From assembly GCA_021776235.1 (NCBI GenBank), contig JAJFGG010000038.1, positions 62,001 to 126,000 on the forward strand: DNA of 64,000 nt. The letters run 5' to 3'. The stretch is from Alphaproteobacteria bacterium. Lineage in GTDB: Bacteria > Pseudomonadota > Alphaproteobacteria > GCA-2731375. Shown here piece after piece: positions 1,146 to 17,130 of the stretch. The notes beneath the pieces are model-generated. The model ran no database searches, was not told the DNA's origin, and saw only the letters and a program-made list of their open reading frames with translations. Each line of letters opens with the position of its first letter. The first letter of the stretch is position 1. Position numbers and translations under genes: made by a program.

Positions 1146-2993
1146 ATGACGAAATCACAGCATGACTCCGTCGGCGAGAGCAAGGCCAGGGGCTTTCCCT
1201 TCCGCTTTCGTGTGGGCATGCGCGCGGCCCTCATGGGCGGTTTCGGCGGTCTGGTTCTGTTGGCGGTGGCGACCGTGCTATTTCTGGGGCTGTGGAGCGC
1301 GCGGCAGAATACGGTTTCCCTGACACGCAAGTTGGCCGAATCGACACTGAACAGCGTCGAAACAGCTATTGCCCAACGTCTGGGCCCCGCTGAAGGGGCC
1401 GTAGAGCACCTTGGCCGCCGGATTGAAAATGGTCAGATCCAAATCGTACCACCCACCGATCTGTCGCAGGCCCTGGCATCCGCCCTGGCCGCCCTGCCTC
1501 AGGTTGGCGCGTTATTGTTTCTGGATCGGCAGGGCCGGGGCCTGCAGGCTATACGGGCTGACGACAATGTTGAAGTTGAAGCGGCGCAATTCACCCAGTC
1601 GCCTGAAATCATGCACCAAATCGCTCTGTCGCAAGCCCATCACGGGACTTATTGGGGCAAGATTCTACGCGCGCCTGACGTGCCTCTGACTCTATTAAAT
1701 GTGCGCCGTCCCGTGCGCCTGGGGGATGATTTCGTCGGTGTTTTGGTCGCTTCGGTCAGTGTATCGCAACTCTCAACCGTTTTGGCGGAGGCGTCCCGGG
1801 TCATGGGTGGCGAAGTCTTCGTGCTGTACGACAAGCGCTTTGTCCTGGCGCATCGCCGTTTGGCGAATGGCTTCAAGGAAGCCACGCCGGAACGGCCCTT
1901 GCCTTCGATCGACACTTTTGGGGATCCAGTCCTGGCGGCCTATCTGCATCCGGAACTGGGTCCCGAATACGGCAGCAGGATGTCCCGTGATATGGGAATA
2001 CAGATTGTCGGCACGGCGGATGGCGAGGCTTATCCAATCATCACCCGGCAGCTGAATTGGTTCGGCGAAATACCATGGGAAATCGGCGTCTATTTCCGCA
2101 ATGATGATGTGGCGGACGAATTCAAGCGTGTCATGTGGGCTGGCATAGCCGGCCTGGTTGCCTTGCTGCTGGCTCTATTGCTGGCCTGGGCCCTTGCCAA
2201 GCATATCAGCCGTCCGTTGAAGGATCTGGACAGGGCCGCCCGGCGTATCCGCGACTTGTCCCTGGATGATTTTACGGCCCTGCCAAGCAGCCGCATCAGG
2301 GAAATGAACGACGCGGGGCAGGCCTTCAACGCCATGGTCACCTCGCTGCGTTGGTTCGAAACCTATGTGCCGCGCAGCCTGGTCCGCCGCCTGATGCGCC
2401 AGGGTGAAGGCGTCCTGGATCGTTCCGTGCAGCGCGAGGTGACGGTGATGTTCAGCGATATCGTTGGCTTCACCGCTGCTTCTGAACAGCTGGGGGCGGA
2501 AGAAACGGCCGCATTGCTGAATGCACATTTCGCCGAAATGGGCGCCTGCATCGAAGCCCAGGGCGGCACCATCGACAAATACATCGGCGATGCCGTGATG
2601 GCATTCTGGGGCGCGCCGGAGGAGCAACCCGATCACGCTGCCCGGGCCTGTCGTGCCGCGCTCGCCATCCGCGCCGCGGTCGAGGCCGGGAACAAACGCA
2701 ACGCAGCTCAGGGCAAAGCCGCCCTGACCTTGCGCATTGGCGTGCATACGGGTCCAGCCATTGTCGGCAATATCGGCGCGCCGCAACGTATGAACTACAC
2801 CATCGTCGGCGATAGCGTGAATATCGGCCACCGGCTGGAACAATTGGGCCGCACATTGCCCAATCCGACCTCCCCGGTGACCATCATCCTGTCCCAGGCA
2901 ACCCTTGATGCCGCCCATATCCAGGGCGCCGAGGATCTGGGCCCGCAGCAGATCAGAGGCCGCCGGGACTCCTTGAATGTCTATCGATTTTGA
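1146..2993 (+). CDS. membrane adenylate/guanylate cyclase with Cache sensor and HAMP
   Basis: A class III nucleotide cyclase anchored in the inner membrane. A membrane segment at about residues 28-50 is followed by a roughly 275-residue periplasmic region resembling a double Cache sensor. A second membrane segment lies at about 328-350, a HAMP linker at about 350-405, and the catalytic domain at about 425-600. Both metal aspartates are visible (FSDIVGFT and DKYIGDAVMAFWG). The Lys of the second motif matches the adenine-selecting Lys. The second specificity position is Thr (TIVGDSVN), as in many bacterial adenylate cyclases. The catalytic Asn and Arg are present in VNIGHRLE. I chose the ATG at 1146; a TTG at 1134 is in frame. 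The 3' end overlaps the convergent MFS gene by 13 bases. The ligand is unknown. Confidence 0.9.
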   Translation: MTKSQHDSVGESKARGFPFRFRVGMRAALMGGFGGLVLLAVATVLFLGLWSARQNTVSLTRKLAESTLNSVETAIAQRLGPAEGAVEHLGRRIENGQIQIVPPTDLSQALASALAALPQVGALLFLDRQGRGLQAIRADDNVEVEAAQFTQSPEIMHQIALSQAHHGTYWGKILRAPDVPLTLLNVRRPVRLGDDFVGVLVASVSVSQLSTVLAEASRVMGGEVFVLYDKRFVLAHRRLANGFKEATPERPLPSIDTFGDPVLAAYLHPELGPEYGSRMSRDMGIQIVGTADGEAYPIITRQLNWFGEIPWEIGVYFRNDDVADEFKRVMWAGIAGLVALLLALLLAWALAKHISRPLKDLDRAARRIRDLSLDDFTALPSSRIREMNDAGQAFNAMVTSLRWFETYVPRSLVRRLMRQGEGVLDRSVQREVTVMFSDIVGFTAASEQLGAEETAALLNAHFAEMGACIEAQGGTIDKYIGDAVMAFWGAPEEQPDHAARACRAALAIRAAVEAGNKRNAAQGKAALTLRIGVHTGPAIVGNIGAPQRMNYTIVGDSVNIGHRLEQLGRTLPNPTSPVTIILSQATLDAAHIQGAEDLGPQQIRGRRDSLNVYRF

Positions 2994-4480
2994 ACACTCT
3001 TTACGGGCTGCAACGGTTGCCGCCGCGGCTTCGGGGCGGGCATATTTTCCGCTTTCTTAATCCGTACCAACATGATCAGGGGCAGCGCAGCGAGGGCGGT
3101 GAGGGTATAAAAATAGAAGGCGTTGATATAGCCGATCATCAGGCCCTGGCGCTGGATTTCGCTGCTGACATGAGCCAGGTTCTGAATGGAGCCTATGTTC
3201 CAGGCGCCGGCCACGGACGGAATTTGCCAGACCTTGGCGTAGGGCGTCACCGCTTCGGCCAGGTGGCCGTAGTTGATTTTGGCACTATGCAGAACAAGGG
3301 CAACGCTGATCGAGATGTGGGCGGAAGAGCCGATATTGCGCAGCAAATGAAATATTGACGAACCTTCGGGGAATAGTTCCCGCGACAGGGTGTTAAAGGT
3401 CACCAGGGTCAACGGCACCCACAGAAAGCCCGTGCCCAGGCCCTGTACGAAACCGGCCCAGGCCACATCGGAGGTCGTCAGGTTGATATCGAACTGCGCC
3501 ATCATCCAGCCGGATATGCCTTGCAAACCGAAGCCGCAAACCAGCCAGATGCGCGGGTCATAACGATTGCCAAAGAACAGTATGGAGAACCCCAGCAGAG
3601 TGCCCGCCCCCCGTGCACCCAGCAGCAGGCCGATTATGCTGTCGGGATAGCCGCGCAAATTCTGCAGCAGACCCGGCAGCAAGGTCATGGGCGTAAAGTT
3701 CAACAGGCCGAAGACCAGCGTCAGGGCGATCCCAAGCACGAAGTTGCGGTCCAGGAACAGGCGTGGATTCAGGAACGGCCGCTCGGCGGTAAAGGTGTGA
3801 ACCACGAAGATATAAAAGCAAAGGGCGGCGGCACAGATTTCCAGCACGATTTCGGTTGATTCCAGCCAGCTGTTGCGTTCCCCGCGGTCCAGCAGCAATT
3901 GGAAACAGGCAATGGCGACAGACAATGCGATAAAGCCGGTCCAATCCAGGCGGATGCGGGCTGCCCGCGCCCCGTCCGCCACGAAGGCCCAGCAGCCCAG
4001 CAGCGAGGCCATGCCAATGGGGACGATCATGAAGAATACCCAGCGCCAGCTGTATTCCTCGCTCAGATAGCCGCCTATGGTCGGCGCGATGAGCGGTCCA
4101 AGTACCACGCCCATGCCGAATATGGAGGTCGCCGTACCATGTTTATGCTGCGGGTACGCGGCCAGGACAATGGATTGCGACAATGGCGCCAGCGGCGCGC
4201 CAAACAATCCCTGCGCAACCCGGAAGAAGACCAGCATTTCCAAAGATCCGGAAAAGCCGCACAGCAAGGTAGCCAAGGTAAAGGCGGCGACGCAAAACAA
4301 TAACAGACGGCGTTGGCCGAAACGCGCGGTCAGCCAACCGGTCATGGGCGTCGCCACGGCGGTGGCGACAATATTGAAGGTAATAACCAGGGCAATCTGA
4401 TCCTGGGTCGCCGACAGGGCCCCCTGCATCTGCGGCAGGGAAACATTGGCGATGGTCACCGTCAAGGCATACAGCGCCAC
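2981..4480 (-). CDS. MFS drug:H+ antiporter, DHA2/EmrB-like
   Basis: Inner-membrane efflux transporter of the 14-segment DHA2 type. Markers are the early TVTIANVSLPQMQ helix, the GWLTARFGQRR loop (motif A), and FRVAQGLFGAPLAPLSQS followed by LGPLIAPTIGGYL (motif C). The coordinates use the GTG at 4480, the first canonical start. However, the frame stays open back to the upstream gene's stop and encodes GIILFTLTSTVALYAL, the first half of helix 1, so the real start is probably upstream. No ATG, GTG or TTG exists there; a CTG at 4558 follows an AGGCGG sequence. It is last in an SDR-HAD-MFS run. The substrate is unknown. Confidence 0.85.
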   Translation of the reverse strand: MALYALTVTIANVSLPQMQGALSATQDQIALVITFNIVATAVATPMTGWLTARFGQRRLLLFCVAAFTLATLLCGFSGSLEMLVFFRVAQGLFGAPLAPLSQSIVLAAYPQHKHGTATSIFGMGVVLGPLIAPTIGGYLSEEYSWRWVFFMIVPIGMASLLGCWAFVADGARAARIRLDWTGFIALSVAIACFQLLLDRGERNSWLESTEIVLEICAAALCFYIFVVHTFTAERPFLNPRLFLDRNFVLGIALTLVFGLLNFTPMTLLPGLLQNLRGYPDSIIGLLLGARGAGTLLGFSILFFGNRYDPRIWLVCGFGLQGISGWMMAQFDINLTTSDVAWAGFVQGLGTGFLWVPLTLVTFNTLSRELFPEGSSIFHLLRNIGSSAHISISVALVLHSAKINYGHLAEAVTPYAKVWQIPSVAGAWNIGSIQNLAHVSSEIQRQGLMIGYINAFYFYTLTALAALPLIMLVRIKKAENMPAPKPRRQPLQPVKSVQNR

Positions 4481-6147: not shown

Positions 6148-7305
6148 TCAATAACTTCGTGGCAGCCCCAGCCGCTCGCCGAGAAAATTTTTCACCATTT
6201 CGTTGGAAATCGGGCTGAAAGGGCCAAGGCGGGCATCCCGGAAAAGCCGTTCCAGGGGTGACTCCTCCACCAACCCGTAGCCGCCCAGCACGCGCATGCA
6301 GCTGTCCGTGGCGCGAAGGGCGGTTTCGGTGGCGGCCAGTTTAGCCATGGCGGCCTCGCGGGAGCATTCCCGGTCCTGGGAGAGCAGCCAGGCTGCTTTC
6401 TGGGTCAGCAGGCGGATCTGCTCCAGTTCCGTCGCCACCTCGGCCAACGGATGCTGTACCGCCTGAAAGGCGCCAATGGGCCGCTCAAACGCGGTGCGGT
6501 CCTTGGCATACTGTACGGCAATATCCAGGGCGGCAGCGGTGATGCCCACATAGATCGCGGCTGACAGAATGCGTTCCTCGTCCAGCGAAGAGAGCAGGGT
6601 GTACCAGCCGCGGCCACGCGGCCCGAGCACGGCATCCGCGGGCGCCCGGGCTTCGTCGAGAAACACTTCGCAGGTGCCGCCAGAGCGCATGCCCATCAGT
6701 TCCAGACGCCGTACCTCGACGGCATCTTGCTGCCGCGGCGTCAGTATCAATGACAGCCCGCGGGCCCGCTTGCCGTTCTCGATGGGGTCGGTGCGGCAGA
6801 GAACCAGAATGGCGTCGGCATCGTCGGCCAGCGTCGTGAACAGCTTTTGCCCCTGCACCGACCAGGCATCGCCGTCCAGCTTTGCCCGGGTGCTCAGGCC
6901 CAACACGTCGGTGCCGCCACCCGGCTCCGTCATGCCGAACGCCATGATGAAGTCGCCCTGGGCAAGGCGGGGCAGATATTCGGCCTTTTGTGCCTCGGTG
7001 CCATGTTCGCGGAAAATGCGGCCGGTCATAGATAAAAGCACCCATCCCATCGCCAGGGATGGGTACTGTCGCGCCAGCTCTTCGCAGAACACCGCCCCGG
7101 TCGCAACGTCGCTGTTGCTGCCGCCGTAAGCCTCGGGCACGGATAGGCCGAGCCAGCCAAGTTGGCCAAAGGTTTTCCAGATCTCACGCGGGATGCGCCG
7201 ATCACGGTCCATGCTCCGGATTTGAGCTTCCGGCAGGTCGCGCAAGAAATATTGCCGGATACTGTCGCGCAACAGCGCGTGTTCTTCGGGCGGGTCAAAA
7301 TTCAT
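6148..7305 (-). CDS. acyl-CoA dehydrogenase family protein
   Basis: A 385-residue FAD enzyme expected to oxidise an acyl-CoA to the enoyl-CoA. The middle beta domain shows FGMTEPGGGTDV, and the C-terminal helical domain shows DRTAFERPIGAFQAVQH and VLGGYGLVEESPLERLFRDAR. The usual C-terminal catalytic Glu (the EGT of medium-chain enzymes) is replaced by a SPIS sequence. A Glu is present in SSLDEERILSA, where isovaleryl-CoA-type enzymes carry their base. I chose the ATG at 7305 because GGAGG sits seven bases before it; a TTG at 7323 is also in frame. It is divergent from the acyl-CoA ligase. The substrate may be branched or unusual. Confidence 0.88.
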   Translation of the reverse strand: MNFDPPEEHALLRDSIRQYFLRDLPEAQIRSMDRDRRIPREIWKTFGQLGWLGLSVPEAYGGSNSDVATGAVFCEELARQYPSLAMGWVLLSMTGRIFREHGTEAQKAEYLPRLAQGDFIMAFGMTEPGGGTDVLGLSTRAKLDGDAWSVQGQKLFTTLADDADAILVLCRTDPIENGKRARGLSLILTPRQQDAVEVRRLELMGMRSGGTCEVFLDEARAPADAVLGPRGRGWYTLLSSLDEERILSAAIYVGITAAALDIAVQYAKDRTAFERPIGAFQAVQHPLAEVATELEQIRLLTQKAAWLLSQDRECSREAAMAKLAATETALRATDSCMRVLGGYGLVEESPLERLFRDARLGPFSPISNEMVKNFLGERLGLPRSY

Positions 7306-7460
7306 GCTGGCCTCCGCGATCAAATCGATCGTTGAACTTTAATCACTGCAGCCCGTTGACGCCAATATACGTTCGGGTACGCTGGCCAGGCAGATTATCT
7401 ATTCACGGTGCGCGAGGGCGGCTGCATGACGCCATCAGGACCCGGCCGGGGCCTTTGCCA

Positions 7461-9008
7461 ATGAACCTTGGCCTGACGCTTACACAATCGGCGCTGAAAT
7501 GGCCTGACCGGACGGCCCTGGTTTTCGAGGGCCGGCGCTGGAGCTACGGTCAATGGAACCGCGAGGTCAACCGGGCCGCGAACGCATTTGCCGCACAGGG
7601 CGTCGGGCGTGGCGACCGGGTCGCATTCCTGACCTGGAACCTGCCCCAGCAGGTCACGGCCTTCTATGGACTGCTCAAGATCGGCGGGGTTCCGGTTCCG
7701 ATCAACTACCGCCTGGCGGCGAATGAAGTGAAGTATATTGTCGAAGACTGCGGTGCCCGTCTGCTCGTCTTCGAGGAGACGCTACGCGACCGGGTGCAGC
7801 CAATCATGGCCGATCCGCGAAGCGTCGAACGGCTGATCTACATCGGTGATAGCCCACAGGGTCACGAGACGCCCTACGAAGACTTCGTCGCGCCGGCGTC
7901 GGATCGCGAACCGCCGGTTGGCGCCGGGCTCGATGATACCGCTTTTATCATGTACACCTCTGGCACCACCGGCGTGCCCAAAGGCGTGGTGCGCACCCAT
8001 CAGGCCGAGTTGTTCGGCGCCATGACCATGGCGATTGAATGTAACTTTCGCCATGACGACCGCATACTGAACAACAAACCGCTTTTTCACATCGCGCAAC
8101 TGCAGTTGCAGTTCATACCCTTTGTGCTGTTGGGTGGCACCAATGTCCTGACCCGTGGCTTCGAAGTGGATGAAACATTGAGGCTGGTGGAGACGGAACG
8201 CCTGACCTGCCTGCACGGCGTGCCGACCCAGATGGTCATGATGATGCAGGCGGAGCTTGCCAAATACGACCTGTCCTCTTTGCGCTGTGGCTTTTATGGC
8301 GGTCAGACCCTGGCCGACGATGTGACGCGCAAATGCATGGCGCTGTTCCCGGAGATGTTCTTGAATGTTTACGGCTTTACCGAGGGCCTGACCGCCAGCG
8401 TCTGCGATTACCGGCGTCATCCCGGCAAACTGGGCAGTGTTGGGCAGGCCGCCGTCAATATGGAGGTCCGCATCCTGCGGACAGGCGCGGTGGATGCGGA
8501 CGATATCGCGGCGCCCGGTGAAATTGGCGAATTGATTGCCCGCGGCCCCAGCATAATGAAGGAGTATTTCCGCCTTCCCGAACGCACGGCATCCGCCCTG
8601 CGCGACGGCTGGTATTTTTCCGGGGATGCCGCGTTCAGTGATGCCGCCGGCTTCATCACCGTCAAGGGCCGCATGGACCACACCATAAAAACCGGCGGCG
8701 AGAACGTGCACCCGTCCGAGATCGAGAATGTACTGTTTACCCATGCCGGGATCGCGGATGTGGCCGTCGTCGGCCTGCCCAGTATCAAATGGGGCCAAGT
8801 CGTCTGTGCGGCCGTCGTTGCCAAGGATCCGGCCCTGACGGCGGAGACGCTCGACCAATTCTGCCGCGGCAGCCTCGACCTTGCCGCTTTCAAACGGCCG
8901 CGCCATTACTTTTTCATCGACGGGATTCCGTCGAATTCCACCGGCAAGGTGGAACGCGGAAGACTGATAGATCAGCTGTCCGGACTGCTCGAAGGCCCGC
9001 TCAATTGA
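7461..9008 (+). CDS. class I adenylate-forming acyl-CoA ligase
   Basis: A 515-residue ANL-superfamily ligase that activates a carboxylic acid with ATP and CoA via an acyl-adenylate. The P-loop motif is MYTSGTTGVPKG (about 165-175) and the A5 motif is YGFTEGL. SGDAAFSDAAGFI is followed by the hinge and the TGGENVHPSEIENVL segment, and the C-terminal catalytic Lys is in NSTGKVERG. The reading frame is open upstream to 7059, but homology begins at the ATG at 7461 (MNLGLTLTQSALKWPDRTA). It is divergent from the acyl-CoA dehydrogenase and convergent with the MaoC genes, so it probably feeds acyl-CoA to them. Chain-length preference cannot be read. Confidence 0.92.
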   Translation: MNLGLTLTQSALKWPDRTALVFEGRRWSYGQWNREVNRAANAFAAQGVGRGDRVAFLTWNLPQQVTAFYGLLKIGGVPVPINYRLAANEVKYIVEDCGARLLVFEETLRDRVQPIMADPRSVERLIYIGDSPQGHETPYEDFVAPASDREPPVGAGLDDTAFIMYTSGTTGVPKGVVRTHQAELFGAMTMAIECNFRHDDRILNNKPLFHIAQLQLQFIPFVLLGGTNVLTRGFEVDETLRLVETERLTCLHGVPTQMVMMMQAELAKYDLSSLRCGFYGGQTLADDVTRKCMALFPEMFLNVYGFTEGLTASVCDYRRHPGKLGSVGQAAVNMEVRILRTGAVDADDIAAPGEIGELIARGPSIMKEYFRLPERTASALRDGWYFSGDAAFSDAAGFITVKGRMDHTIKTGGENVHPSEIENVLFTHAGIADVAVVGLPSIKWGQVVCAAVVAKDPALTAETLDQFCRGSLDLAAFKRPRHYFFIDGIPSNSTGKVERGRLIDQLSGLLEGPLN

Positions 9009-9011
9009 GAC

Positions 9012-9437
9012 CTAGTCAGGCAGGCGAACCTCTGTGGTCGCTTCGGCGACGATATCATCGTCCTTGGTCAACTGCTGCGACAAAACGACAATAGGGCAGT
9101 CCTCTTCCGTAAGAATCTGGCTTACCTGGCCTGCCATGTGCAAGGTATCGCCTGCGAAGGCCATGGAACGCATACGAAAACTCAGGCGCCGGACAAAGGC
9201 CTTTGGCCCCAGCCAGCCGGTCGCCTGCTTGGCAAACAGCGCACCGTAGATCTGCCCGTCTATAACCGGCGCCGGTAATCCCATCTTATGCGCGAAAGCA
9301 TCATCGTGGTGTAGGCGGTGCCAATCCCAAGTGGCGGCGCCGTACATGACCAGATTCGCCGATGAAAAAGTTTTCCTGGCCTTGGGCATGGCATCACCTG
9401 GCCGCAGGCCGGCCGCCGTCTTCGTTGCCGCGATCAT
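9012..9437 (-). CDS. MaoC-like hot-dog dehydratase, catalytic-type subunit
   Basis: A 141-residue single hot-dog protein of the MaoC/R-hydratase group. The sequence YGAATWDWHRLHHDDAFA carries an Asp and a His five residues apart at the place of the hydratase Asp/His pair, followed by the substrate-loop region PAPVIDGQIYGALFA. Such enzymes hydrate or dehydrate 2-enoyl/3-hydroxyacyl-CoA. Its ATG overlaps the stop of the next MaoC gene as ATGA, so the two chains are translationally coupled and probably form a heterodimer in which this chain supplies the active site. It is the last gene of the RidA-MaoC operon. Confidence 0.84.
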   Translation of the reverse strand: MIAATKTAAGLRPGDAMPKARKTFSSANLVMYGAATWDWHRLHHDDAFAHKMGLPAPVIDGQIYGALFAKQATGWLGPKAFVRRLSFRMRSMAFAGDTLHMAGQVSQILTEEDCPIVVLSQQLTKDDDIVAEATTEVRLPD

Positions 9438-9934
9438 GGTTCGCCCCGCAATGGCTGATAGACCAGGGTTTCGCTATTCACCGCGATCAAGTCCTTCGCG
9501 TTATCGTAATAACGCCCCACGGAGGTCACGAATAACTGCGTACCGCCAAGCCGCGATTTACGTTCTACAATGTCTTCCAGTGTCCAGGTGACGGACACCC
9601 GATCGCTGGCCAGCACCGGCCGGATAAATTCATAATCATTGCCGCCACGGATCATGCGGCAGCCACTGACCGGCAGATCCCAGGAATGCCCGATGTAGCC
9701 GTTCGCGTTAGGTGGCCGGTGGGCATATTGGCATGTCTCCACCACAAAAGTGGGCGGCGCGATCACCCCGGAAAAACCGGCTTCCCGTGCATAGCCTTCG
9801 TCCTGATACAATGGGTTTTCGTCGTCAATGGCCAGGGCGAAATATCGAATTGAGGCGCGGCCCAATTCCTCCCTGGCCGCATAGGTCACTTCGCGGCCAA
9901 TCCAGGTTTTGAGTTCTTCGGTTAACAGAGGCAT
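9434..9934 (-). CDS. MaoC N-terminal (FAS1-like) dehydratase, probable non-catalytic partner
   Basis: A 166-residue hot-dog protein of the MaoC_dehydrat_N type. The segment RYFALAIDDENPLYQDEGYA keeps the D-x-N-P of the hydratase signature but has Tyr where the catalytic His would be. IAPPTFVVET follows, as in the family. With the 4-base overlap into the catalytic-type subunit, it most likely forms the lipid-binding half of a heterodimer, as in the HadA-type partners. I chose the ATG at 9934; a TTG at 9946 would overlap the upstream stop. The cellular substrate is unknown. Confidence 0.82.
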   Translation of the reverse strand: MPLLTEELKTWIGREVTYAAREELGRASIRYFALAIDDENPLYQDEGYAREAGFSGVIAPPTFVVETCQYAHRPPNANGYIGHSWDLPVSGCRMIRGGNDYEFIRPVLASDRVSVTWTLEDIVERKSRLGGTQLFVTSVGRYYDNAKDLIAVNSETLVYQPLRGEP

Positions 9935-9942
9935 GTCAATTC

Positions 9943-11109
9943 TCAATCCAGCACGGCAAACGGATCGACCTCGATTAACATTTCCGGACGCAGCAGCCCA
10001 TTGCAGATCAGACCCGTAGCCGCCGGGTAGGGCCTGGCCAGCAGCTTGCTGCGCAATGCGCCGACTTCGCGATAGTTTTTCAACCCTGCCGGCGTAACAT
10101 ACTCAATCGTCTTCACCAGGTTTTCCGCTGTGCCGCCCGCGGCCTCTATCACCTTGAAAATATTCCTGTAGGTATAATCGGCCTGTGCCGCGACGTCGCC
10201 GGCATGTTCGATACGGTCCGTTTCCGGGTTCAGTGAACCCTGGCCCGACAGGAACAACAGCTTTCCGGCCCGCACGCCCGGGCTATAGGTCAGCTTTTCA
10301 TAACGTTGCCAGCCGGGATTGACGGCCACCGGTTCGTCGCGGGTGGCGATAAAGTCATACTGGATCAATGCTTCGGGGTGTAGCAGACGGGGCATCAGGA
10401 TGCCGGCGGCGCCTGGATACACCGGGCCCAGGAATTCCTTGCGGATCCGGCCTGTCTTGCGATAGTCGGGCAACGCCGCCGGCGTGAAATAATCCAGCGT
10501 CTTGACCACCCGGTCGAAACCGAGGCCCAGCGCCACTAGCATTTCCTGTGCGGTCTCGAATATTGCCCGGGTTTGGGCGACGACGTCGCCCGCTCCGACA
10601 ATGTTACCGTTCCCGTCCACGGCCTGCACCGTGGGCAAAAACACCACACCGCCGGAGTCCCGCGCGGTGGGCAAGCCCCGGCCAAACGATGTTTCCGGAC
10701 CCACGGGCCCGGCGGTTACTTCGATCTCGATCAAAGCCGCGGACCGCAACAGGGCTTTTACCGGTACGGTATTCACCGCCGGACGGTGCGCGCCAAACAC
10801 CTCCTCGCGTACAGCGGCTGCTTCCACGTAGCGCTCGATGCCCTCGGGCTGAACATACTCGACCACCCGGACAACATCGTCATAGGTTTTACCGGCGCCT
10901 TCCAGTATGGCGCTCACCTTGGCATAGGCGGTGCGTGCCTGTTCGGTCATGCTGCCCTGAATCCGGATCCGGCCAGATGCGGCATCGTGCTGCGATGCCG
11001 TATGGCCGGACAGATACACGCCCTGTCCCGCTTCGAGGCCCAGAGAGAAGGAGTAATTGGAATAGTCGAACCAGGGAAAGTGTTTCGGCCGCACGGCCAC
11101 AGATGCCAC
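9943..11109 (-). CDS. triple RidA (YjgF/YER057c/UK114) domain protein
   Basis: A 388-residue protein made of three consecutive RidA-like domains, at roughly 15-130, 135-255 and 260-388. Each shows the family pattern: LSGHTA or LSGQGS near the start, an EQARTAY/AQTRAIF/AQADYTY helix, and an IEIEV/IQYDF/IEVDP strand at the end. RidA proteins work as homotrimers with active sites between subunits, so three fused domains could make a one-chain trimer. Only the middle domain has an Arg (MPRLLHPEALI) where the enamine/imine deaminase Arg is expected. The GTG at 11109 follows GGAGG by six bases; another GTG at 11130 is in frame. It leads the MaoC pair. Confidence 0.85.
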   Translation of the reverse strand: MASVAVRPKHFPWFDYSNYSFSLGLEAGQGVYLSGHTASQHDAASGRIRIQGSMTEQARTAYAKVSAILEGAGKTYDDVVRVVEYVQPEGIERYVEAAAVREEVFGAHRPAVNTVPVKALLRSAALIEIEVTAGPVGPETSFGRGLPTARDSGGVVFLPTVQAVDGNGNIVGAGDVVAQTRAIFETAQEMLVALGLGFDRVVKTLDYFTPAALPDYRKTGRIRKEFLGPVYPGAAGILMPRLLHPEALIQYDFIATRDEPVAVNPGWQRYEKLTYSPGVRAGKLLFLSGQGSLNPETDRIEHAGDVAAQADYTYRNIFKVIEAAGGTAENLVKTIEYVTPAGLKNYREVGALRSKLLARPYPAATGLICNGLLRPEMLIEVDPFAVLD

Positions 11110-11199
11110 GGGGATCCTCCAATTTTCCACTAATGTTTACTGCCCCGTCACGGTATCGTCCGCCTGGCAACAGCGTCAAGCCGAAAGCCCCGACATGCT

Positions 11200-12933: not shown

Positions 12934-13748
12934 CAGGTTGTCTTGCGGCCGCTGAATATGGCGTGACCGGCCAGCAACCAATGGACGTCGACCTCGATAA
13001 ATCTGGCTTGTTCCAGCCACTTCAGCTGCGCCAGCAGGGGTGACGGTTTATCAATGGGGTCGGGATATGGATCCGCATAATAGTTCCAGCCGGTTGCGAC
13101 GAATTTCTGGTAAGGGTCTTCCGGTCCCTGATGCTCCTGGGCCGCTTCACGGGTGCTCTGATCCCAGGTCCAGGCGGCAACCGACGTGGCGGCGGGCGAC
13201 AGAGGTTCGATCAGATCGGCGATGATGAACCGGCCGCCCGGTTTCAAGGCCTGGTACATATCGGCATAAAGTTTTGCCTTTTGCCGCCCATCCAGATGAT
13301 GGATCGCCAGCGACGAGACGATCGCCAATGGACCCCCTGGCACCCCAGACAGCTTTCTCCAGCCGTCGCTGCCTAGATCAAAAGCCGCGACGCGGGCCCG
13401 CTCGCCGAACGGGGCCAGCCGCGCCGCTGTCACCTGACGCATGGCCTCGGAACCGTCCAGGGCCAAGACCGAAGGTTCTGGCCGCGCCTGCAACAAGGCT
13501 TCGCTCAACCGTCCCTCGCCACAGCACAGGTCAACATAGCTTTCCCCGGATCCCGCTTCGGGCGTCAGATCGCGGATGATGCGCAACTGGGTAGCCCGGT
13601 GGGGCACAAAATACTGGCCCCAGTCCATGAAGACAGCGGAATCGCTTTCCTGCCAACCGGGTTTCTGGCCGTCAGTACCCACTATGCGGTCAATCGCTGT
13701 TGGAACCCGGGCGCGGAATGCCGACCAGACTGAAGCCGTTGTCCACAT
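12933..13748 (-). CDS. class I SAM-dependent methyltransferase
   Basis: A 271-residue (at most) methyltransferase. Motif I is YVDLCCGEGRLSEALL, motif II is VLALDGSEAM, and SLAIHHLDGRQKAKLYADMYQALKPGGRFIIADL is the post-motif region typical of small-molecule methyltransferases. The ATG at 13748 would overlap fabI by 59 bases; a GTG at 13682, just after the fabI stop, is an alternative. The 3' end touches ggt by one base. It may be co-transcribed with fabB-fabI, but the substrate is unknown. Confidence 0.85.
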   Translation of the reverse strand: MWTTASVWSAFRARVPTAIDRIVGTDGQKPGWQESDSAVFMDWGQYFVPHRATQLRIIRDLTPEAGSGESYVDLCCGEGRLSEALLQARPEPSVLALDGSEAMRQVTAARLAPFGERARVAAFDLGSDGWRKLSGVPGGPLAIVSSLAIHHLDGRQKAKLYADMYQALKPGGRFIIADLIEPLSPAATSVAAWTWDQSTREAAQEHQGPEDPYQKFVATGWNYYADPYPDPIDKPSPLLAQLKWLEQARFIEVDVHWLLAGHAIFSGRKTT

Positions 13749-14499
13749 TCATCACTTCGCCGGTCACCGCGCTGGACAGATCTGAAAGCAGGTACAGACC
13801 GCTGTTGCCAATGGCGGCCAGGTCCAGGTCTTTCGGCAGGGGGGCATGTTGGCCGGCATATTTATGCACGTAACGGCCGTCAGCAATGACCGCCCCGGCC
13901 AGGGTACGCATGGGGCCGGCAGATATGGCATTAACCCGGACGTTATCCTTGCCCAAATCCTCGGCCAGATAGCGGACAGAGGTTTCCAACGCCGCCTTGG
14001 CCACGCCCATGACGTTGTATGACGGCATGACCCGATGGGCGCCCAGGAAACTCAAGGTCAGCATGGCGCCGCCATTGGTCATCAGAGTGGATGCGCGGCG
14101 GGCAAGATCGGTGAAGGAAAAGCACGAAATTGACAGGGTTTGGACGAAATTGTCCCGGCTGGTGTCCACATAACGGCCACTCAATTCCGTCCGGTCCGAA
14201 TAGGCAATGGCATGGACCAGAAAATCCAGACTGCCCCAACGCTCGCCGATGACATCGAACAGGGCATCCAGGCTGTCAGCGTCGGTCACATCGCAGGGCA
14301 TCAGTAGCTGACAGTCCAACGAGGCCGCCAGCGGTTCAACCCGTTTCAGGAAACTGTCGCCCTGATATGTGATGGCCAGTTCCGCGCCGGCGCCGTGCAA
14401 TGCACTGGCGATGCCATAGGCGATGGAGTGATCATTGGCGATGCCAAGTACCACGCCGCGCTTGCCGGCCATGAGTTGATCTTTGGCCGTTTCCTTCAT
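13690..14499 (-). CDS. fabI: enoyl-[acyl-carrier-protein] reductase, NADH
   Basis: A 269-residue FabI that reduces trans-2-enoyl-ACP in the last step of each fatty-acid elongation cycle. The modified Rossmann motif is GIANDHSIAYGIA (about 19-31). The catalytic pair is seen as SYNVMGVAKAALE, with Tyr and Lys six residues apart. MRTLAGA occupies the substrate-loop region. ATG at 14499 is preceded by GGAGAAG. It is third in a fabA-fabB-fabI run. FabI is the target of triclosan-type inhibitors, so the presence of this isoform matters for sensitivity. Confidence 0.95.
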   Translation of the reverse strand: MKETAKDQLMAGKRGVVLGIANDHSIAYGIASALHGAGAELAITYQGDSFLKRVEPLAASLDCQLLMPCDVTDADSLDALFDVIGERWGSLDFLVHAIAYSDRTELSGRYVDTSRDNFVQTLSISCFSFTDLARRASTLMTNGGAMLTLSFLGAHRVMPSYNVMGVAKAALETSVRYLAEDLGKDNVRVNAISAGPMRTLAGAVIADGRYVHKYAGQHAPLPKDLDLAAIGNSGLYLLSDLSSAVTGEVMNVDNGFSLVGIPRPGSNSD

Positions 14500-14565
14500 G
14501 CTCTTCTCCGTCCCTGTCCAGCCTTTTTCCGGGCTTTTCGTCGGTTCACAAAATTCAGCCGCTAG

Positions 14566-15783
14566 CTACCCCGCGAACCGATCAAAGATCAAGGTCGCGT
14601 TGGTGCCGCCAAAGCCGAAGCTGTTGGACATGACGGAAACCAGTCCGGCGCTATCAATGCGTTTGCGCACCACGGGAATGTCTTCGAAGGCCGGGTCCAG
14701 GTTGTCGATGTTGGCGGATGCGGCAATGAAATCCCCTTCCATCATAATCAGCGAGTAGATCGCCTCGTTGACGCCGGCGGCACCCTGAGCATGGCCGGTG
14801 AGGGATTTGGTGGACGCGATGGGCGGAATACTGGCGCCAAATACCTCGCGCACCGCGGCCATTTCCGGTGGATCGCCGACCGGTGTTCCGGTGCCGTGGG
14901 CATTGATATAGCCGATTGGATTGTGCACCGTGGCCAGGGCCTGGCGCATGCTGCGCGCCGCGCCATCACCCGATGGCTGCACCATGTCATGGCCGTCCGA
15001 GGTGGCGCCATAGCCCGTGATCTCGGCATAAATTTTGGCGCCCCGGGCCTTGGCGTGCTCCAGTTCCTCCAACACCAGAACGCCGCCGCCGCCCGATATG
15101 ACGAAGCCGTCCCGGTCCACATCGTAGGGGCGCGAGGCCCGTTCCGGGGTGTCGTTGAATTTCGAGGACATTGCCGCCATTCCGTCGAACAGGACCGAGA
15201 GGGTCCAATGCAATTCTTCGCCGCCGCCGGAAAACATCACATCCTGTTTGCCGAACTGGATCTGCTCGGCGGCATTGCCGATACAATGAGCCGAGGTCGA
15301 ACAGGCCGAAACAATCGAATAGTTCAGGCCCTTGATCTTGAATTCGGTGGCCAGAACGGCGGAGGTGGTTGACGACATACAGCGGGTTACCATGTAAGGG
15401 CCGACCCGTTTGGCGCCTTTTTCCCGCGCCGTGTCCGCCGCCCAGACCAGATTTGACGTGGATGATCCACCGGATCCTACAATGATGCCGGTTCTCTCGT
15501 TCGAGATCTCCGCCGGCTCCAGGCCCGAATCCTCTATCGCCTGCTGCATGGCCAGATAATTATAGGCCGCACCATCGCCCATGAAACGCAACGCCTTGCG
15601 GTCAATGTGCGCGGCCAGATCTATTTTCAAACTGCCTTGCACCTGTGAGCGGAATTTATACTCCGCATACTCGGGCGCAGCCACGATGCCGGAGCGGCCT
15701 TCCCGCAGCGATTGGGCCACCTCGGCTTTGGTGTTGCCGATAGAGGATATTATCCCCAATCCTGTAACAACCACCCTGCGCAT
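14566..15783 (-). CDS. fabB: 3-oxoacyl-[acyl-carrier-protein] synthase I
   Basis: A 405-residue beta-ketoacyl-ACP synthase, the length of E. coli FabB. The Cys-His-His active site is visible as SACSTSAHC (Cys about 163), [11 protein letters not shown] and [12 protein letters not shown]. The C-terminal [12 protein letters not shown] glycine-rich end is intact. Its position directly after fabA points to FabB, which elongates the cis-3-decenoyl intermediate, rather than FabF. ATG at 15783 follows AGGAG. It lies 57 bases after fabA and is probably co-transcribed. Confidence 0.94.
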
Positions 15784-15840
15784 AGCAACTCCTATGACAA
15801 ATTGGGCCCGGCCCTACATGGAACCGCGGCGATAGGCATA

Positions 15841-16359
15841 TTAAGTGAACAAAGCCACCCGCAAATCTTCCGCTTCAAAGGCTAGTTCACCATCCACTTT
15901 AGCAATGGCATCTGCCACGGCCAACACCAGACGGCGATTGACCACGCGTTTTACGTTAACTTCGAAAGACACCAGTTTCGCGGATGGCAGTACCTGTTCG
16001 GACAGCTTGACCTTGCCGCAGCTCAGCGCCCGTCCGCGTCCCGGCAGGCCGCACCAGCCGGCGAAAAATCCCAGCATCTGCCATACGGCGTCCTGCACCA
16101 GACAGCCGGGCATGACCGGATCAGACTCGAAATGGCAATCGAAAAACCACAAATCCGGCCGGATATCCAATTCCGCCTTGGCCTGGCCCTTGTCATAGGT
16201 GCCACCGTCTTTGGTAATCGAGGTGATGCGGTCAAGCATCAACATGGGCGGCAACGGCAATCTGGCATTGCCCGGCCCAAACAGGCGACCGTGGCCGCAT
16301 TCCAATAAATCGTCCAGCCCATAACTGGACTTTGCCTTGAAAGTAGAACTGTCAGTCAC
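15841..16359 (-). CDS. fabA: 3-hydroxydecanoyl-ACP dehydratase/isomerase
   Basis: A 172-residue FabA, the bifunctional hot-dog enzyme that dehydrates 3-hydroxydecanoyl-ACP and isomerises the product to cis-3, starting unsaturated fatty acid synthesis. The catalytic His and Asp are in [20 protein letters not shown] (His about 73, Asp about 87). The start is a GTG at 16359. It is first gene of fabA-fabB-fabI and divergent from irr, an arrangement common in alphaproteobacteria. Iron-linked control through the shared upstream region is possible but not shown by a clear site. Confidence 0.95.
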
Positions 16360-16710
16360 CGGTCAATACCATCCGCATCGTTGTCAGAAATGTCTCGCGT
16401 ATCCGGCCGCCGCACGGATCCCGCGAACGGCGCAGTCTAACTGAATTCTGGCCAGCGATAAACCTAATCAGCCTGAATCACAGTGCGCGAAATCATTTCT
16501 CTAATCACAAGATATAGCTCGATACACTACTTCATGCGCTTGCTATTTGTCCGGATCGCACTATCATCCCATAGGCAAGAGGCAGGATTAGATCAGATTC
16601 TTGCTTAACTTGTATTTGAATTCTTCTTGTTACAACTTGTGGCAATATGTGGTGTTCATGTTGTATTGCCGCGATAATTTGTGCAATGCCTAACTACAGG
16701 AACCCAGACC
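16360..16710. other. divergent fabA/irr intergenic region (351 bases)
   Basis: An AT-rich spacer that must hold the promoters of both fabA (minus) and irr (plus). I see no clean sigma-70 pair or canonical Irr box. A loose inverted sequence, TTGTA to TACAA, lies at about 16610-16635. The irr ribosome-binding site is AGGAA at about 16697-16701. No open frame of note is present. Confidence 0.5.
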
Positions 16711-17130
16711 ATGGTTGATTTGCGACCGACCTCCGATGTGACGCAGGAACTAAGGGCAGCCGGATTGCGCCCGACACGGCAACGCCTGGCATTGGCACGC
16801 CTGCTGTTTGACCACGGTAACCGCCATGAAACGGCGGAAAGCCTTTACGACCGATCGCAAGAAGCGGGTATCAAAGTCAGCCTGGCAACAATTTACAACA
16901 CCCTGCACCAGTTTACCGCCGCCGGATTGCTACGCCAAGTCGTAGTCAATTCTACCCGCAGTTATTTCGACACCAATGTTGAAGATCATCACCATTTCTA
17001 TTTCGAAGATACGGGCGAGATTGCGGATATTCCCAATGACCGGATCAATTCCATTGCGCCCACCGATTTGCCCGCGGATATGGAGTTGTCCCGTGTTGAT
17101 ATTATCGTCCGACTGCGTGGCACGCGCTAA
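16711..17130 (+). CDS. irr: Fur-family iron response regulator Irr
   Basis: A 139-residue Fur-superfamily repressor/activator. The winged helix occupies about residues 12-80 (GLRPTRQRLALARLLF, then SLATIYNTLHQF as recognition helix). The dimer domain contains the three consecutive His at 93-95 (EDHHHFYFEDTGEI), a hallmark of Irr, which senses haem and iron status. There is no Cys at all, so the C-x2-C zinc sites of Fur/PerR and the GCPW haem motif of Bradyrhizobium Irr are absent. I chose the ATG at 16711 with an AGGAA site; a GTG at 16681 is in frame. An Irr-box-like sequence follows its stop. Confidence 0.9.
   Translation: MVDLRPTSDVTQELRAAGLRPTRQRLALARLLFDHGNRHETAESLYDRSQEAGIKVSLATIYNTLHQFTAAGLLRQVVVNSTRSYFDTNVEDHHHFYFEDTGEIADIPNDRINSIAPTDLPADMELSRVDIIVRLRGTR

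Follow-up and report, generated by a model that had tools for sequence, protein, structure and literature searches.

A triple-RidA protein without the deaminase arginine and its conserved coupling to split MaoC and acyl-CoA genes

Introduction

Can three RidA domains joined in one chain close into a trimer of their own, and upon what would such a protein act when its gene is tied to a split MaoC hydratase? The question is raised by a minus-strand gene in the window, by which is meant the whole stretch of 64,000 nucleotides analysed here from an Alphaproteobacteria bacterium (GCA_021776235.1, contig JAJFGG010000038.1). In RidA, the carboxylate of the substrate is held by Arg105, a residue regarded as decisive for deaminase activity (PMC4433059, PMC1884159, PMC5619798), and what Rid proteins devoid of this arginine do was given as unknown in 2015 (PMC4433059).

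Single-chain RidA trimers are already known. Niehaus et al. named "3x-RidA" proteins in 2015 and described them as "presumably covalently linked trimer units" (PMC4433059), and one chain of AtzD, the cyanuric acid hydrolase/barbiturase of Toblerone fold, was proposed to derive from three concatenated YjgF-type units (PMC3758960). Both chorismatase and AtzD are relatives with solved structures and a comparable layout. The single-chain trimer proposed in the preliminary description was therefore an idea already in print, whereas its MaoC context was not found described: among open-licence papers, none was found that joins RidA with MaoC and acyl-CoA dehydrogenase, and none that describes an arginine-less, MaoC-coupled 3x-RidA family. 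It is this context that stands out.

Results

The triple-RidA gene and its partner genes

The 3x-RidA gene is real and lies on the minus strand; the plus strand of 9943-11109 carries stops. A single open reading frame without stops holds three PF01042 domains (whole-protein E 1.5e-40, 3 stretches), and all three matches stand above the Pfam cut-off, with 59.9, 27.4 and 58.2 bits for domains 1, 2 and 3. The frame may open at GTG 11130 and encode 395 amino acids (9943-11130), the form that residue numbers follow throughout. GTG 11109 is the likely start, in agreement with the gene boundary first proposed. Scans for promoters and terminators returned nothing above chance. The features of the gene are as follows.

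9943..11109, minus strand: triple-RidA gene (3x-RidA), 388 amino acids from GTG 11109
11116..11120, minus strand: Shine-Dalgarno-like GGAGG, 6 nt before GTG 11109, read directly
10705..11073, minus strand: RidA domain 1, residues 20-142, with V119 at the Arg105 column, E135 at the Glu120 column and a conserved H43 in SGH
10336..10683, minus strand: RidA domain 2, residues 150-265, with A241 at the Arg105 column and Q257 at the Glu120 column; the weakest Pfam match
9946..10329, minus strand: RidA domain 3, residues 268-395, with A371 at the Arg105 column, E387 at the Glu120 column, Y282 and G296

Its neighbours in the window are these four genes.

9434..9934, minus strand: MaoC1, FAS1_DH_region/HadA-like half of a split hydratase, without the catalytic His (DxNPLY)
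9012..9437, minus strand: MaoC2, MaoC/HadB-like half, with the D..H motif kept (TWDWHRLH)
7455..9008, plus strand: AMP-dependent acyl-CoA ligase, convergent with the MaoC pair
6148..7323, minus strand: acyl-CoA dehydrogenase, divergent from the ligase

3x-RidA and the two MaoC genes lie close together on one strand, with the ATG of MaoC1 (9934) placed 8 nt past the 3x-RidA stop and the start of MaoC2 overlapping the end of MaoC1 by ATGA (9437-9434). The pair carries the marks of a split MaoC, which read W-D-[WF]-H-R-L-H in MaoC2 and D/Y-NP-[LI]-Y in MaoC1 across the loci read. Like HadAB and ChsH1-ChsH2, it consists of two small hotdog proteins with the D..H motif in just one of them; it differs from these systems in being coupled to 3x-RidA, and its scores lie far under the HadA and HadB equivalog cut-offs. 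Beside the cluster, positions 13690-17130 hold what we take, by eye from the sequence, to be fabI, fabB, fabA and an irr/fur-like regulator.

Conservation of the neighbourhood

A scan of genome contigs yielded 17 loci, 16 of which are orthologs at 51-77% identity from Alpha-, Beta- and Gammaproteobacteria and Chloroflexota, all of them metagenome-assembled genomes (MAGs), for which the taxa given are the assignments of the bins. MaoC1 lies directly downstream of 3x-RidA in 15/16 loci, and in the one remaining (L032) the space ahead of MaoC2 would fit MaoC1 in size, but no MaoC1 frame was called. MaoC2 is likewise present in 15/16, with two CoA-transferase genes intervening in L043; L044 is the locus in which it was not found. 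The window's CoA ligase (at least 67% identity) and its dehydrogenase (at least 70%) each have an ortholog among the neighbours in 9 of the 16 other loci, several contigs ending early. The coupling to a split MaoC, remarked upon at the outset as an unusual partnership, thus recurs from Proteobacteria to Chloroflexota and is conserved across phyla.

In one locus (L036:6381-9170), a CoA ligase is fused in frame to 3x-RidA through a short proline-rich linker, giving one chain of 929 amino acids as read from the assembly of one genome. The ligase part belongs to a second class, being 31% identical to the window's ligase and 69% identical to a ligase that L033 encodes in a gene of its own.

Other neighbours comprise class III CoA transferases, luciferase-like oxidoreductases, MmgE/PrpD proteins and transporters; an amidase, Rieske oxygenases and others are less frequent. 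No nitrogen-metabolism gene was constant in these neighbourhoods: an amidase was seen once, a RutB-like hydrolase twice and a luciferase-like oxidoreductase five times. A uracil-type (Rut-like) pathway was considered and set aside, the luciferase-like genes of five loci and the RutB-like genes of two never sharing a locus; the one luciferase-like protein scanned was closest to F420-type oxidoreductase models. Separately, a conserved frame of about 200 amino acids, flanked by MaoC2 and the CoA ligase, was observed in three loci of Betaproteobacterial MAGs (L038:3022-3642, L039:10084-10704, L041:10081-10680), for which no Pfam match was found with the L041 copy and no NCBIfam match with the L038 copy.

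Predicted fold

The structure of 3x-RidA was predicted by AlphaFold2 from 24 homologs with a pLDDT of 92.5 and a pTM of 0.91. The best whole-chain match in the PDB was the chorismatase 4bps (Z 27.0, rmsd 2.9, 284 residues, model residues 35-393), and single RidA chains each matched one 3x-RidA domain with Z about 17-20. A chorismatase is itself a pseudo-trimer of RidA-like parts, and the alignment is consistent with this. The confident model and the whole-chain chorismatase match together support a chain that closes into a single-chain pseudo-trimer, so that the trimer proposed from the sequence finds backing in the predicted structure.

The model shares the overall single-chain layout of the FkbO/Hyg5-type chorismatases (4bps, 5a3k, 5ag3), with 16-19% identity in the structural alignments. 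AtzD was absent among the fold matches listed for the model, and no match to the cyanuric acid hydrolase/barbiturase family was obtained for the window's 3x-RidA at E 1e-3 in Pfam or NCBIfam; a similarity of fold may nonetheless exist. The likeness to AtzD lies in the proposed make-up of its one chain from three YjgF-type units; AtzD differs in having its active site in the central barrel, with Ser-Lys dyads.

Origin and distribution

A tree was built from the separated domains (D1, D2, D3) of eight orthologs, two of them from Chloroflexota MAGs, together with single RidAs and the domains of two more triple-RidA genes of the window genome, which lie on contigs C60 (L055:8431-9648) and C98 (L056:8152-9414) and both lack Arg105. 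D1, D2 and D3 each formed one clade, and all of them together formed one clade (97/91) that excluded the sampled single-domain RidAs; the support of the D3 clade alone was 88/91 and the exact branching is less sure. Such a topology points to one triplication before the sampled Chloroflexota and Proteobacteria sequences. The C60 and C98 domains fell outside this clade and grouped with other single RidAs, from which it follows that 3x-RidAs arose more than once. Among the genomes searched, several other Alphaproteobacteria have the C98 type as single-domain frames, and just two, the window genome and a congener, have it as a triple, so that its triplication looks recent from the sequences compared.

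Two further observations concern these relatives. The frame directly after the C98 gene (L056:9444-10106) is, as we presume from its look, of DUF1028 type, and another Alphaproteobacterium (G039) holds two adjacent frames of triple-RidA length (L020:1081-2325 and 2385-3641).

The ortholog family is rare and patchy. It was detected in 7/14 genomes of the window's taxonomic family, in 3/385 genomes of the class sample at E 1e-40, a figure that includes the window's own and a distant 3x-RidA (G178/L048, E 1e-41), and in 1/398 genomes of the phylum sample at E 1e-60, which was the window's own. The plasmid collection held no 3x-RidA homolog at E 1e-20.

Residues of the clefts

The columns of the clefts were read from an alignment of 20 orthologs with E. 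coli RidA as the reference. It can be seen from this alignment that the Arg105 column is occupied by the V119, A241 and A371 listed above, and that an arginine occurs there in 0/20 orthologs in each of the three domains, so the arginine by which imine deaminases (RidA, Rid1-3) are recognised is missing throughout. The middle domain had been thought to be alone in retaining it; in domain 2 the column is in fact Ala or Ser in 20/20 orthologs, and the residue originally seen was probably R248.

The acid/base position is unevenly retained, the Glu120 column being Glu in domain 1 (E135, 20/20) and domain 3 (E387, 19/20) and Gln in domain 2 (Q257, 20/20). The Ser30-Gly31 cleft pair is kept in domains 1 and 3, with Ser30 replaced by Ala in domain 3 of 3/20 orthologs, and its columns are mostly Pro-Thr in domain 2. 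Going by these columns, domain 2 is the most degenerate of the three, the reverse of the earlier picture of one asymmetric active site preserved by a middle-domain arginine. Mean column identities of 0.78, 0.75 and 0.79 for domains 1, 2 and 3 indicate, as far as an alignment can, that all three domains are still under constraint.

Compared with the archetypal RidA/TdcF/UK114 proteins (TIGR00004), the window protein keeps the RidA fold and, in domains 1 and 3, Glu120, and differs in having its domains fused in one chain with Arg105 missing from each. It resembles the 3x-RidA proteins of PMC4433059 (for example EF_0115 of Enterococcus faecalis) in its three tandem domains; it differs from them in lacking Arg105 in every domain and in having a conserved operon in which a split MaoC is joined by genes for a CoA ligase and an acyl-CoA dehydrogenase, MaoC being unmentioned in that paper.

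Discussion

The loss of the arginine together with the conserved group of CoA genes suggests a specialised, so far uncharacterised enzyme. The reading that we tentatively prefer, and to which we would give not quite an even chance, is a single-chain hydrolase or tautomerase of RidA fold that acts on a CoA thioester of enamine-, imine- or enol-type. Three RidA domains from one triplication would fold as a chorismatase-like pseudo-trimer whose three inter-domain clefts have diverged. Going by the sequence columns, domains 1 and 3 keep the Ser, Gly and Tyr or Phe of the cleft along with the Glu120 acid/base, and domain 2, having lost these residues, would probably serve a structural or substrate-binding purpose. 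As no domain carries Arg105, hydrolysis of 2-aminoacrylate or of a free imino acid is not expected. The substrate would instead be a CoA thioester bearing an enamine/imine or enol group and no free carboxylate, hence the dispensable arginine. We infer the CoA moiety from the co-inheritance of the gene with the HadAB-like MaoC pair, the ligase and the dehydrogenase, and from its one fusion to a ligase. What speaks against this reading is that the neighbourhoods share no constant gene of nitrogen metabolism.

On this preferred reading, 3x-RidA may act by hydrolysis or tautomerisation on what the dehydrogenase yields, and so open the way for the MaoC pair or for the step that comes next. For example, an amino-acyl-CoA might be dehydrogenated to an enamine, whose protonation and hydrolysis would be within reach of a Rid fold that still has its Glu. 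For beta-valine it is established that a bacterium can remove the amino group from the CoA ester, using a ligase and a hydratase-like lyase and without any Rid protein (PMC4619459).

A non-catalytic role, in which 3x-RidA would be a pseudo-enzyme scaffold that binds or protects the MaoC and ligase enzymes, is an unlikely alternative that nonetheless deserves weight. The disappearance of Arg105 from all domains, the tight coupling to MaoC and the single ligase fusion would all sit well with it, but S41, G42, H43 and E135, and equally Y282, G296 and E387, vary little or not at all between Chloroflexota and Proteobacteria, which would be expected of a pocket in use.

The top structural match raises the prospect of an enzyme of chorismatase type, an enol-ether hydrolase or an aromatising enzyme whose substrate would be a cyclic enol and not a CoA thioester, and a weak Pfam match to the FkbO/Hyg5 N-terminal domain (E 4.8e-4) points the same way. 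We consider this decidedly improbable, for the protein stays under the curated cut-offs of PF21168 (20.6 vs 27 bits) and TIGR04444 (23.7 vs 325 bits) and no chorismate genes were seen nearby. Moreover, the C60 paralog from the same genome, a product of a separate triplication, was modelled comparably (pLDDT 89.0, pTM 0.90) and matches chorismatase equally (Z 27.6), which indicates that the match reflects architecture and not function.

Ordinary damage pre-emption of RidA type, that is, hydrolysis of 2-aminoacrylate or imino acids with the fusion of domains being incidental, is very unlikely: the protein does pass TIGR00004 (Rid family detoxifying hydrolase) with 113.1 against a cut-off of 106.25, where the score is that of the whole protein and two stretches pass, but the deaminase-determining arginine (PMC4433059, PMC5619798) is missing from all three domains. 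Hardly any likelihood is left for a single-chain trimer with one asymmetric imine-deaminase site built on the middle domain, since, for all that three domains are fused and R248 lies near the right region of domain 2, this residue aligns with E. coli R112 and not R105, is K or G in 4/20 orthologs, and sits in the domain with Ala or Ser at the Arg105 column, Gln in place of Glu120 and the worst Pfam score.

The preferred reading, a hydrolase or tautomerase of CoA-bound substrates, can be carried a step further: the arginine-less pseudo-trimer could constitute an unrecognised type of enzyme for CoA-bound enamines, imines or enols within a ligase-dehydrogenase-hydratase pathway found from Chloroflexota to Proteobacteria, a bolder claim that we regard as a minority possibility.

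Overall, a rare family with so firm a tie to a single set of CoA enzymes, and with one case of fusion to a ligase, leads to a concrete and testable class of substrate, and the repeated origin of single-chain RidA trimers let three once-identical clefts diverge.
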